Virus record (IMG/VR): IMGVR_UViG_3300043122_000118
Location: 1 to 33,992 of that record
Direction: 5' to 3' (one strand)
Origin: a virus
Length of the DNA stretch: 33,992 bases
Under the pieces are notes generated by a model. The model made no database searches. It worked only from the letters and a program-made list of their open reading frames with translations, and had not been told where the DNA came from. Positions within the stretch are counted from its first letter, which is position 1, and every line of letters starts with the position of its first letter. Below are positions 39-23,124 of the stretch, piece by piece. The position numbers and the translations under genes were made by a program.

Positions 39-1865
39 TTATTCCGCTACCTTCTTATTGCTAACATTAACAATCGATTCACCTTTTGCATTAATGCGGT
101 GAGTTGCCATTTTTGGTGTGATAAATAGATCTTTATTCTGTATTAATAGTGCTGGCGTCATTTGAAGTAACTTTTTCCATAACGCTGGTTTTGCGTGTTG
201 CTTAACAAACTTACTATCCCAAACACGTTTCCCGCCTGCCATAATAGCCCAATACTTAACCTTGGCAATTTCTTGTTGCCCATCGATACCGAATGAATCA
301 AGCCAATATGTAACCTGGATTGCATCACTTCTGGCGCCGATGATTTCTATTTCCATTTTTAATACTGGCTTCCAATCTGCATCGGTGTACGCCTTATGTG
401 ATAAATTAGCATTTGGATCAATCAAGTATTTATTACAGTTTCCGCATATTTTGGCCGCAATGTCATTTTTATGGCCGCAACCTTTCTCAATTAGGATATT
501 GTTTAAGCGTAGATCTTCACATGCTCGGAATTTGAACCAGTGATCGCACGTATCACTCTTGCACTTTCTGGCATGAACACCGCACTCAGTGTCACACTTA
601 GGACAATAAATAAATGCATTATCCTTTTTGTCTTTGGCTTCCATAGCATCATTGAATGTCGGGTTATTGAACAAATCGGCCATTGCCTCAAGTGTTCCGC
701 TAAAGTCTAAAACTAAGTGTTCTTCTTTCTTGATACCTGCATCAATCATCCATTGTTTTGGCAAGCGACGTCCACGACCCAGTAGCTGCTCAAGTAAAAC
801 AATGCTACCTATGCGCCGTAAAATTACCGACGTGTCAATAATAGGCGCGTTAAACCCAGTGGTAAAAACACCAATTTGAAATAAATATTTAATCTTACCA
901 TCTTTGACTGCGTCAACTATCTCCTTCCGGCCTTCATAAGCCGTATTAGTCTCCGTTTTCTGAGTGGTTACAATCGCCCAAGTTATATCACCAAGCACGC
1001 TGGCGGCTTCTTTTGCGTGTTTAAATCCGCTGCATGTGACTAGCACGCCGTTTCTGTCTTTGGTTAGTTCCATAACATCATGCATAATTGCTTGAGTAGT
1101 GGATAAATCCATTTTGGCCTGCATACGCTCCATATCGGCTTTTGAATAGTCGGTCATGCTGACCTCTTCAAAATTATTAAATTCTGATAGGTCGTATTGA
1201 TGATCCGTAAACCCAAAAACATCAGGCACAGTGAAGCCGTTTTCCTTTAAAAATTCACGGTCAATTACTGGCTTTAATTCTTCTGACCAGAATGTGCCAA
1301 CAATAGATGATGAACCCCTCCAGGGAGTTCCAGAAAAACCAATTACCACTAATTTTGGATTAAGCGTTTTGAAGTGGTCGATCACCTTTGCAAATAGTGT
1401 TGTTTTTTCGCCCTCAATATCTTCATAAGCTACTTTGTGGCACTCATCAATTAATAATATGTGAGGTATTTTATCTGGTGAATAAAAGTCTTTTTCAAGT
1501 CCATTAAAAACACTGCCAACAGTCGCGCAGATATTGCTGTAGTAAGTGGACTTCACGCCAACGTAAGCAGAATAATAGCTGCATGGTGTGTCCATGTCCC
1601 ACAATTCCTTCCCGTTCTGGTCTGCTAGCTCACCAACATCAGTTAGTATCATGCATCGTGCGCCAACATTCATACAATGATTAGCAACTGCTCCCATCAT
1701 CATTGATTTTCCACTACTAACTGACGCGTTAAGAATAGCGTTCTTAATCTGTTTGCCTATTTTGTGATTGGCGAATTGCTCACGAATAAATTGCTTAATA
1801 TTTTGGATAGCTTCCCACTGATACGGGCGAGGCGTCATTAATCCAAATGTTGGTATGTCGGTCAT
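39..1865 (-). CDS. Phage SF2 DEAD/DEAH-type helicase with C-terminal zinc ribbons
   Basis: A 608-residue superfamily 2 helicase, expected to unwind DNA with ATP during phage replication or recombination. Visible motifs in order: Walker A ending SSGKS at about residues 50-54, motif II DECH at 140-143, motif III SGTPW at 178-182, and motif VI QLLGRGRRLP at about 360-369. After the helicase core come two Cys clusters (C421, C424, C428, C435, C440; and C463, C474, C477), which look like zinc ribbons that would bind DNA. It is the last gene of a leftward operon with the primase at its head; its start overlaps the stop of the nucleotidyltransferase-like gene by 4 nt. The family assignment is secure; the exact replication role is inferred. 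Confidence 0.92.
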   Translation of the reverse strand: MTDIPTFGLMTPRPYQWEAIQNIKQFIREQFANHKIGKQIKNAILNASVSSGKSMMMGAVANHCMNVGARCMILTDVGELADQNGKELWDMDTPCSYYSAYVGVKSTYYSNICATVGSVFNGLEKDFYSPDKIPHILLIDECHKVAYEDIEGEKTTLFAKVIDHFKTLNPKLVVIGFSGTPWRGSSSIVGTFWSEELKPVIDREFLKENGFTVPDVFGFTDHQYDLSEFNNFEEVSMTDYSKADMERMQAKMDLSTTQAIMHDVMELTKDRNGVLVTCSGFKHAKEAASVLGDITWAIVTTQKTETNTAYEGRKEIVDAVKDGKIKYLFQIGVFTTGFNAPIIDTSVILRRIGSIVLLEQLLGRGRRLPKQWMIDAGIKKEEHLVLDFSGTLEAMADLFNNPTFNDAMEAKDKKDNAFIYCPKCDTECGVHARKCKSDTCDHWFKFRACEDLRLNNILIEKGCGHKNDIAAKICGNCNKYLIDPNANLSHKAYTDADWKPVLKMEIEIIGARSDAIQVTYWLDSFGIDGQQEIAKVKYWAIMAGGKRVWDSKFVKQHAKPALWKKLLQMTPALLIQNKDLFITPKMATHRINAKGESIVNVSNKKVAE

Positions 1866-21981: not shown

Positions 21982-22150
21982 TTATGCATGTGGTGAATTA
22001 ACGCCTCTTGATAAGATTAATAAGGCGCTAGTATTGGCTGAGTTAGTTAGATCGCACACGCAATACATTGAATGTCAGCAGGCCGTGAATAGCTGGTTAC
22101 TTTGGTATGATGCTGTTAATAAATCATTTAGTGTTGACAGTAAAGAGTGA
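21872..22150 (+). CDS. Rz1: Rz1-like o-spanin lipoprotein
   Basis: Starting at the ATG at 21872, behind GAGG at 21859-21862, it encodes MLRNTAIVIAMLLMTSGCAS: a lipoprotein signal with lipobox LMTSGC, acylated Cys at residue 18. The mature part has Pro/Gln (QLPQKPTSYACG) like other Rz1 proteins, but is long (92 residues total) and continues past rz with a helical region. Overlaps rz out of frame. A promoter for the downstream RNA lies in its last codons. Confidence 0.82.
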   Translation: MLRNTAIVIAMLLMTSGCASTTNQLDAQRQLPQKPTSYACGELTPLDKINKALVLAELVRSHTQYIECQQAVNSWLLWYDAVNKSFSVDSKE

Positions 22151-22162
22151 TTGTTATATTGT
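22134..22162 (+). promoter_or_regulatory. Promoter for the structured RNA region
   Basis: TTGACA (22134-22139) followed after 17 nt by TATTGT (22157-22162), or after 15 nt by TATATT (22155-22160). Transcription would start near 22168-22170, right at the 5' strand of the first tRNA-like element (22171). Confidence 0.55.
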
Positions 22163-22170
22163 TAGTTTAA

Positions 22171-22282
22171 TTCGATTTGACTGAGTAGTAATCAGGCCTA
22201 AAGTTGAAACGCGATATATCATTAGTCTGGATCGCGATATCCTATAGACAAGTGAACACAGGTTCGAATCCTGTAATCGATA
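22171..22282 (+). other. tRNA-like element 1 (acceptor, D, T arms; enlarged anticodon side)
   Basis: Acceptor TCGATT/AATCGA (22172-22177, 22275-22280); D-like arm CTGA/TCAG (22181-22184, 22192-22195); a stem CGCGAT/ATCGCG (22210-22215, 22231-22236) with a 15-nt loop instead of an anticodon arm; and a perfect T arm ACAGG-TTCGAAT-CCTGT (22258-22274) directly joined to the acceptor. About 40 nt longer than a canonical tRNA. Confidence 0.55.
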
Positions 22283-22447
22283 AGTAAAAAAAGTGAGACA
22301 ACACTACGAAAACCGACTCACTCACGTTACGAGTGCATATTTTTAAAGTGTTTAGAGGTTGTGGTGTGTTTTAGAGGGCCGCTGCGTAGATTTGTCTGCG
22401 TCACACCCACCTATTGAGTTGCGGGTAAACTACAGTCTAGTTAGGCA

Positions 22448-22643
22448 CTTTAACAATATGATATACGAAAGGTGTTAACGTGACACTAAAATCCTCGAAC
22501 TATTGCCTCTGCCTGAATCATCAGATCACGCATTAGGCGGGGTAATATTTATACATTATATTATATTTTTAAAGGTTATTGGTTGATTAACTTGAGCGCC
22601 AACTTGTGCTTAGCAGTAACCTTTAACAATGTGATATACGAAA
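22448..22643 (+). repeat. Tandem 23-nt direct repeat, 173-nt period
   Basis: CTTTAACAAT, then A or G, then TGATATACGAAA occurs at 22448-22470 and 22621-22643 with one mismatch. Each copy carries the 3' arm of a long stem whose 5' arm follows ATATTTTTAAAG (22338 and 22564). The stems are different in sequence, so pairing rather than sequence is kept. Confidence 0.75.
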
Positions 22644-22713
22644 ATGGTAATCCGCGGTCGGTAGCAATAACATTGTGCCACTGTATTTGTTGGTTCGAGT
22701 CCAACTATCACAT
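22630..22713 (+). other. tRNA-like element 2
   Basis: Perfect 7-bp acceptor TGTGATA/TATCACA (22630-22636, 22706-22712) joined directly to a perfect T arm GTTGG-TTCGAGT-CCAAC (22689-22705). A third arm CGGTAGCA/TGCCACTG (22659-22666, 22676-22683, one mismatch) has a 9-nt loop without the U33 pattern; the D arm is at best two pairs. At 83-84 nt it is near type II tRNA length, but no usable anticodon is visible. Confidence 0.55.
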
Positions 22714-22816
22714 AGTTTGGTTTACTTCTGACAAGGGGTGGTCAAATATCTGCCAGCTAAGAGGCTATGACTAGCACGCAAAATTAACGTTGTGAAACGT
22801 GAATGATGCAAACAAA

Positions 22817-22881
22817 GCCTCAACGCATACGGTGCGGCTCACTGATAAAGAGCTATCGGTCATAACCGAGTTGAGGCACCA
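22817..22881 (+). other. Miniature cloverleaf with an ACCA end (tRNA-like element 3)
   Basis: Stem GCCTCAAC/GTTGAGGC (22817-22824, 22870-22877) followed by ACCA (22878-22881). Inside are three hairpins in tRNA order: GCA/TGC; GCTC/GAGC with loop ACTGATAAA, which contains CTGATAA as in tRNA-Ile; and TCGGT/ACCGA with a 4-nt loop. The last loop lacks the T-loop consensus. About 61 nt plus ACCA. Confidence 0.5.
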
Positions 22882-23033
22882 AATTACTCCATCCCCGCGC
22901 AACATGGGCAGAGGCGAATGGAACACCTATAATGGCAAAAATCTCCTGCCTAGGCTCCTACGAAATGTTGCAGACAAAGGTGTTGATTTGGCCTTCATGA
23001 CGATTAACCATCGTGTCGATTCGGTAACAAGTT

Positions 23034-23054
23034 CCCTCATGTGAGGGTTTTTTA
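23034..23054 (+). terminator. Terminator of the structured RNA
   Basis: CCCTC/GAGGG with loop ATGT (23034-23047), followed by six T and ATT. It faces the leftward terminator at 23078-23097. Confidence 0.85.
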
Positions 23055-23077: not shown

Positions 23078-23097
23078 AAGCCCAGGTTAATGGGCTT
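23078..23097 (-). terminator. Terminator of the leftward methyltransferase operon
   Basis: AAGCCCA/TGGGCTT with a 6-nt loop; on the leftward strand it is followed by TTTAATA. Lies 28 nt after the methyltransferase stop. Confidence 0.8.
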
Positions 23098-23124
23098 GAA
23101 GTTGTAAGTTTGGCTTACAGGTTG

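Follow-up and report, generated by a model that had tools for sequence, protein, structure and literature searches.

What occupies the long stretch behind the lysis genes of this virus, in which no convincing gene can be read? The window analysed here is the whole of IMG/VR record IMGVR_UViG_3300043122_000118 (33,992 bases), and the locus in question lies at 22134-23053 on the plus strand. The original prediction saw in it a giant structured RNA, either a member of the class formed by the phage RNAs GOLLD and ROOL or a new one. Our own reading, to which we would give a probability of roughly 0.45 when taken as a whole, is that the locus yields an autonomous RNA, that this RNA belongs to a family built as a conserved chassis with exchangeable slots, and that it is directed at the ribosome.

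Limits and coding potential of the locus

The o-spanin gene stops at 22150, where the untranslated interval starts, and a promoter overlaps the 3' end of that gene. The signals that delimit the locus are as follows.

22134..22162, plus strand: sigma70-like promoter TTGACA-17-TATTGT, found by scanning; near-identical promoter sequence in the relatives L126, L127 and L129
23034..23053, plus strand: intrinsic terminator CCCTCATGTGAGGGTTTTTT, computed
~23080-23100, minus strand: terminator of the facing DNA methylase gene, read from the sequence

The predicted RNA starts at about 22169 and ends at 23053, leaving about 880 nt without a credible gene between promoter and terminator. A Pfam search with both ORFs of the interval returned no family. 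The 81-aa ORF at 22799-23044 was considered as a gene and rejected, as it has no Pfam match and its reading frame is not kept in L126, L127 and L129, where it is interrupted by stops and a frameshift. The promoter, the gene-free interval and the terminator that had been proposed after the lysis genes are thus all borne out by scans, Pfam and ORF comparison, and the two terminators do face each other. Folding of the RNA strand gives -258.6 kcal/mol (z = -2.9), a stability that 0 of 20 shuffles attain. The element itself is present where the interval had been drawn (22165-23054), but its start is expected at about 22169 and not at 22165. It had also been proposed that the RNA is made late owing to its position behind the lysis genes. 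This is not supported: the locus has its own sigma70-type promoter, and its place differs between relatives, being behind a head gene in 3/49, amid baseplate/tail genes in L148 and mid-genome in 1/4. With a promoter and a terminator of its own, the locus would be transcribed autonomously into a single non-coding RNA of about 880 nt.

Relatives and the conserved core

Among phage isolates, a sensitive DNA search found a single match, 67 nt at 88% identity, which is intergenic in Shewanella phage 3/49 and sits between promoter-like and terminator-like sequence. Pattern scans of viral contigs with the block matching 3/49 and with blocks A and C (listed below), together with a capsid-protein search, gave the syntenic relatives L126, L127/L132 and L129/L133; a 3/49-like group (L027, L029/L061 and L135) came from the same searches. 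Matches to a looser pattern, GAGGCTATGAC-N-GCAAA, are mostly due to chance, yet it pointed to L027, L029 and L061. Searches with another conserved core, CTTTAACAATRTGATA, and with the stretch TTCGATAATAAGGATGGTGATAA led to L147/L148, L154, L179, L182 and L183, and phages 1/4 and 1/40 were recovered by isolate search. The contigs L003/L125 are the window's own virus from another sample and serve as a twin. One further candidate, L136, was rejected as a chance match inside coding sequence. Bacterial genomes gave 0 matches to the pattern and none confirmed with the capsid profile, and the plasmids searched gave no match. About 14 distinct members can be told apart, found in at least four phage settings with differing neighbour genes and including isolates such as Shewanella phages 3/49 and 1/4. 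Model R1, made from block B, recovers every member on which it was built, plus L154, 1/4 and 1/40; L154, first met through the D1-core pattern, was picked up a second time, independently, by the B model (E = 1.4e-7). R1 misses the most divergent members, L147/L148 and L179, whose assignment to the family relies on the D core, the anti-SD stretch and a shared order of parts.

Alignment of the window with L126 and L127 gives blocks at ~90-98% identity, separated by dissimilar stretches of differing length. Across the members, the conserved blocks are A, a D helix, B and then C or another terminator, and the inserts between them are unrelated. In the window these parts are located as follows.

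22293..22335, plus strand: block A, promoter-proximal, GTGAG...GAGTG; 98% identity in L126, L127 and L129 (o-spanin there 79-91%)
22337..22461, plus strand: first copy of helix D1 (22337-22352 pairing with 22446-22461); the insert that it encloses, slot 2, is unique
22456-22465 with 22557-22566, plus strand: possible first copy of helix D2 (10 bp), which would enclose another unique insert; read from the sequence, no comparative support
22561..22632, plus strand: D1 helix copy 2, arms 22561-22581 and 22614-22632
22629-22636 with 22706-22713, plus strand: D2 helix copy 2, ATGTGATA / TATCACAT, closing the cloverleaf-like element CL2
22746..22813, plus strand: block B, with covariation; basis of model R1
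22752-22754 with 22763-22765, plus strand: B pseudoknot helix, over P1 (22756-22759 with 22772-22775)
22778-22790 with 22797-22809, plus strand: B hairpin P3, 3' of P1
22882..23031, plus strand: block C, conserved 3' domain with a possible GCAACAT/ATGTTGC closing helix and others; not coding

Block C is 91% identical in L129, against 79-88% for the spanins; in L126 and L127 the spanins themselves reach about 91%, and there only block A exceeds this background.

Two parts, B and D1, show clear covariation. The B structure was tested as a three-pair pseudoknot helix, a four-pair P1 and a ten-pair P3. Two-sided changes are found in 8 of these 17 pairs, against 3.0 in shuffles (0 of 500 reach 8) and 0-1 in slid controls, and 95.2% of cells are paired, against 86.7% in shuffles and 17-34% in slid controls. 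All changes counted in the pseudoknot helix and P1 come from L183, for which 1/4 and L154 are independent checks by eye. For instance, L183 and 1/4 jointly exchange GCC/GGC for CGC/GCG and GCTA/TAGC for GCAT/ATGC, and in L154, which stands outside the count, both pseudoknot helices are compensated in yet another, third way (CGG/CCG with GGG/CCC). D1 was tested with both arms joined and inserts removed. Here two-sided changes affect 11 of 18 pairs (3.1 in shuffles) and 96.8% of cells are paired (41-53% in slid controls); because the arms were chosen for complementarity, the slid control flatters D1 and the two-sided changes are the stronger evidence. The tandem structural unit noticed in the window is this D unit, present twice, with CTTTAACAATRTGATATACGAAA at 22448 and 22621 forming the 3' arm of a D1 helix each time.

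The same 3' arm of D1 holds CTTTAACAAT, two copies of which are found there and none in the rest of the window. It resembles the core of E. coli rRNA boxA, which should be treated as a lead only. It makes antitermination a serious rival or a second role: cis-acting signals of the boxA/NusB-S10 type, or put-like hairpins, in the promoter-proximal parts would help polymerase to cross a long untranslated tRNA/RNA unit. A promoter-proximal block A conserved at 98% would suit this explanation, but the boxA-like core is gone in L027, L135, L182 and L183 while the pairing stays, D1 is absent from L129 and 3/49, and B lies far downstream, just ahead of the tRNAs. We consider antitermination unlikely as the explanation of the locus.

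Two observations concern the promoter-proximal region itself. Block A holds CTCACTCAC (window 22293-22350), in which GTGAG can pair with the first half or GAGTG with the second; the hairpin with GAGTG has ATTTTT behind it and a weak terminator score, as would suit an attenuator. In the 3/49 group, block A is replaced by a hairpin domain, GATGCCAACTGCGAAGTGTTGACGC..., with compensated changes (GCCAAC/GTTGGC vs GCTAAC/GTTAGC). It is found in L002 (4885-4950), L135 (1840-1910), L061, L154, L179 and L185 (1501-1580), and Shewanella phage 1/41 has it without B, between promoter-like and terminator-like sequence.

Homologous loci thus covary strongly in B and D1, in the very comparison that the original prediction had named as its refutation test, and its large structured non-coding RNA of the tRNA-associated phage kind is upheld. 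By sequence comparison, a structured-RNA family as such is almost certain. It appears to be previously undescribed, with a folded core that is conserved across unrelated Shewanella-type phages; a literature search, largely without subscription papers, found no prior Shewanella-phage RNA of such kind. The host of the window's virus may be linked to Shewanella too, a link that runs only via modules held in common with Shewanella phages.

Slots, tRNAs and tRNA-like folds

Four slots can be distinguished among the conserved parts. Slot 1 is 5'-terminal, helices D1 and D2 (ATGTGATA/TATCACAT) enclose slots 2 and 3 respectively, and slot 4 separates B from the 3' end. The D2 closing helix, for example, surrounds unrelated inserts in L127, L061 and L148. 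Three cloverleaf-like elements had been reported in the window, and all three can be placed in slots.

22171..22281, plus strand: CL1, slot 1; acceptor TCGATT/AATCGA, D-arm CTGA/TCAG, T-arm ACAGG-TTCGAAT-CCTGT
22629..22713, plus strand: CL2, slot 3; D2 copy 2 as closing helix, T-arm GTTGG-TTCGAGT-CCAAC at 22689-22705
22817..22881, plus strand: CL3, slot 4; compact four-way junction GCCTCAAC...GTTGAGGC-ACCA, at the position of the relatives' true tRNAs

CL1 combines canonical-looking D- and T-arms with an enlarged anticodon/variable domain; CL3 lacks a T-loop, and CL1 and CL2 lack CCA. Neither ARAGORN (at its normal threshold, with introns allowed too) nor the Rfam model finds a tRNA in the window, and the Rfam model and ARAGORN's tmRNA mode find no tmRNA there. 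CL1 and CL2 are reported only at a relaxed 70% ARAGORN threshold, amid many other matches on both strands. The body of CL1 recurs at 95% identity over 103 nt in a tRNA-like insert in slot 3 of L147/L148, a myophage, where the acceptor, GTGATATT/AATATCAC, is wholly unlike that of CL1 and is paired in both. This recurrence with a replaced and re-paired acceptor points to folded cassettes that travel from slot to slot and from phage to phage. The other slot inserts of the window have no homologue beyond the twin contig; their folds are therefore those of single sequences, without covariation support.

In most relatives, slot 4 holds true tRNAs, which score 48-69 bits with the Rfam tRNA model and are called by ARAGORN as well. 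They follow B directly in L126 (Pro), L127/L132 (Arg and Ser), L135 (Ser and Arg), L027 (Ser and Thr) and L154 (Gly), and lie farther downstream in L029/L061 (Gly and Trp) and in 1/4 (Gly and Arg, after a pseudo-tRNA). Such an arrangement could be that of a tRNA operon in decay or in transit, in which case the locus would comprise a cassette leader, spacer and trailer, the cloverleafs would be broken tRNA genes and the blocks would be processing or recombination signals. Real tRNAs in slot 4 of many relatives, the sequence CCAAATT common to spacers, CL3 without its T-loop and L182 with tRNA-like remnants only are all consistent with this. However, B, promoter and terminator are kept without an ARAGORN tRNA in 3/49, L129/L133, L182 and L183, the covariation of B and D1 is strong, and CL1 is 95% conserved between unrelated phages with its ends re-paired. 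We find a tRNA operon an improbable account of these data, and prefer a chassis that carries tRNAs as one kind of cargo. Members range from ~200 to 1000 nt, L129 having ~400 nt without D unit or tRNAs and 3/49 having ~200 nt; because these smallest members have neither tRNA nor D module, cargo is not essential.

Further elements were seen in relatives and in other phages. Aberrant pseudo-tRNAs of 95-122 nt, with a good T-arm and acceptor and an enlarged anticodon region, lie at 3113-3234 of L137 and at oriented 334-428 (reverse strand) of L147; with introns allowed, ARAGORN calls the latter a tRNA-Trp that carries an insert of 17 nt. In part of the 3/49 group (L135, L027 and L154), tRNAs and terminator are separated by a small ORF (e.g. 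MSDKQQDNTVV... in L135); the window has none. The slot-3 insert of L061 resembles intergenic sequence of coliphage CUS-3, of Arthrobacter phages and of a Pseudomonas phage tRNA cluster. A second RNA-like module, with core AAAACGAGGCGTCGGTACACGCCTAT and a possible closing helix GCTGAT/ATCAGC, is found in a Shewanella-type phage, in CUS-3 (between Q and holin) and in Arthrobacter phages (near terminase/HNH genes), and also in Aeromonas and Acinetobacter phages and a Pseudomonas phage tRNA cluster. Its copies are at L061 6101-6281, L138 2990-3220, L139 1501-1607, L140 691-795, L141 1501-1564, L142 1501-1542 and L143 1501-1528. Rfam gave no match to the module where scanned, and the CUS-3 version is present in 117 of 5,426 complete E. 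coli genomes.

The anti-SD complement and comparison with known RNAs

What such an RNA might act on is suggested by the sequence just ahead of block B.

22729..22744, plus strand: anti-SD-complementary site TGACAAGGGGTGGTCA; pairs with the 16S tail at -16.6 kcal/mol, more strongly than any other site in the 910 nt scanned

All members have a G-rich stretch immediately before B. When the whole RNAs are scanned, the strongest pairing with the 16S tail GAUCACCUCCUUA is in 13 of 14 members at a site 14-18 nt ahead of B; energies across the members are -12.4 to -19.7 kcal/mol, and L126 and L127 carry the full TAAGGAGGTGAT. Six of the 14 sites are identical by descent (AATAAGGATGGTGATA), so the count amounts to only about seven independent versions. 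The accessibility of the complement is predicted to be not high, with a mean unpaired value of 0.30 in the window, the 17th percentile of the locus. The window thus has both the covarying B pseudoknot and hairpin and the anti-SD complement before B by which the family is recognized.

The codon after the site is ATG in L126, L027, L147 and L179, CTG in the window, L127 and L129, and CTC in 1/4, L183 and L154. In the ATG-bearing members the stretch could be the ribosome-binding site of a mini-ORF. Taken further, this would make the locus a minigene, in which the anti-SD stretch and ATG start an ORF (e.g. MPATRL-stop in L126/L027) and translation over B is the purpose. Those four members do have good SD spacing and an ATG, but CTG or CTC replaces the start codon in most members, the window included, reading frames vary, and the changes keep pairing and not codons. 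A start codon present in only part of the members means that peptide initiation is not the conserved feature, and we regard a minigene as very improbable. Since the position of the complement is conserved and the start codon is not, we tentatively favour an RNA that contacts the 30S subunit and acts on translation.

We propose that the closing helices D1 and D2, the anti-SD complement and the B pseudoknot and hairpin would form the chassis, and that the slots would take tRNAs, tRNA-like folds or other RNA domains, exchanged by phages probably of one host group. The RNA would dock on the 30S subunit via the anti-SD complement, with B alongside; in the window RNA the proposed 30S-binding stretch is AAGGGGTGGTC. 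Once docked, it would act on translation during infection. Host RNases would free the tRNA cargo where present, and tRNA supply would be optional. From transcription and processing to ribosome binding and effect, these are steps that we infer, and the ribosome-directed mechanism is put forward tentatively, at somewhat less than an even chance. Its fullest version is rather doubtful: a viral ribosome RNA machine that docks on the 30S subunit by 16S-complement and pseudoknot and carries exchangeable tRNA or tRNA-like cassettes in unrelated phages of one host group.

GOLLD and ROOL are very large phage RNAs beside tRNA islands whose function is open. A cmscan of the window against all 4227 Rfam 15 families gives no match at the gathering threshold, and relaxed-E scans of the window region and of the relatives' scanned loci give no credible match except tRNA in the relatives. 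A specific search for ROOL (RF03087) found no match at E <= 10 in 14 records, a result that is weak alone as no control genome scored either. The accession that had been quoted for GOLLD, RF01998, belongs to group-II-D1D4-1, a group II intron domain. GOLLD/ROOL membership is therefore not supported, and a new class becomes the better-supported half of the original guess, given that no Rfam family matches.

Likeness in kind is a separate matter. GOLLD is a large phage or prophage RNA near tRNA islands, with a conserved 3' region, a variable rest and sometimes a tRNA in the linker, and ribosome binding is reported for it; ROOL is a large phage RNA that is often near tRNA islands (PMC12286853). 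The locus could be an RNA-only assembly of that sort, a cage or scaffold reached independently. It has a like size, phage setting and tRNA neighbourhood, a conserved 3' part, a variable remainder and a tRNA in the linker, and GOLLD has a reported ribosome association (PMC12286853). Against this stand the lack of an Rfam sequence or model match and a size range of ~200 to 1000 nt, which is unlike a fixed cage subunit, and we hold an assembly to be highly improbable.

Other known systems share single features with the ribosome-directed chassis that we favour. Phage tRNA clusters resemble it in the true tRNAs that most relatives have in slot 4; here, however, the tRNAs are inside a conserved structured RNA that also occurs without them, and the window has no canonical tRNA. 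As in tmRNA and tRNA-like RNAs, CL1 and CL2 join a T-arm and acceptor stem to a non-tRNA domain, but ARAGORN and Rfam give no match, no tag reading frame was identified and both lack CCA. The likeness to rRNA boxA, a lead only, is confined to the CTTTAACAAT core, which here forms part of a covarying helix and which some members have lost. Closest in kind are GOLLD and ROOL, both large, phage-borne and tRNA-linked. ROOL differs in that RF03087 gives no match (control genomes being silent too), and GOLLD in that the present family has a core of B pseudoknot, D helices and anti-SD site, has members down to ~200 nt and, in the window and the relatives' loci scanned, matches no Rfam family other than tRNA. 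Compared with these RNAs, the B-core family goes down to a far smaller size (~200 nt, in isolate 3/49), its covarying core is defined, and the 16S tail is a specific candidate target that lends itself to testing. Natural variants occur both with tRNAs and without them among Shewanella isolates. The question why phages link large structured RNAs with tRNAs can thereby be approached by experiment.
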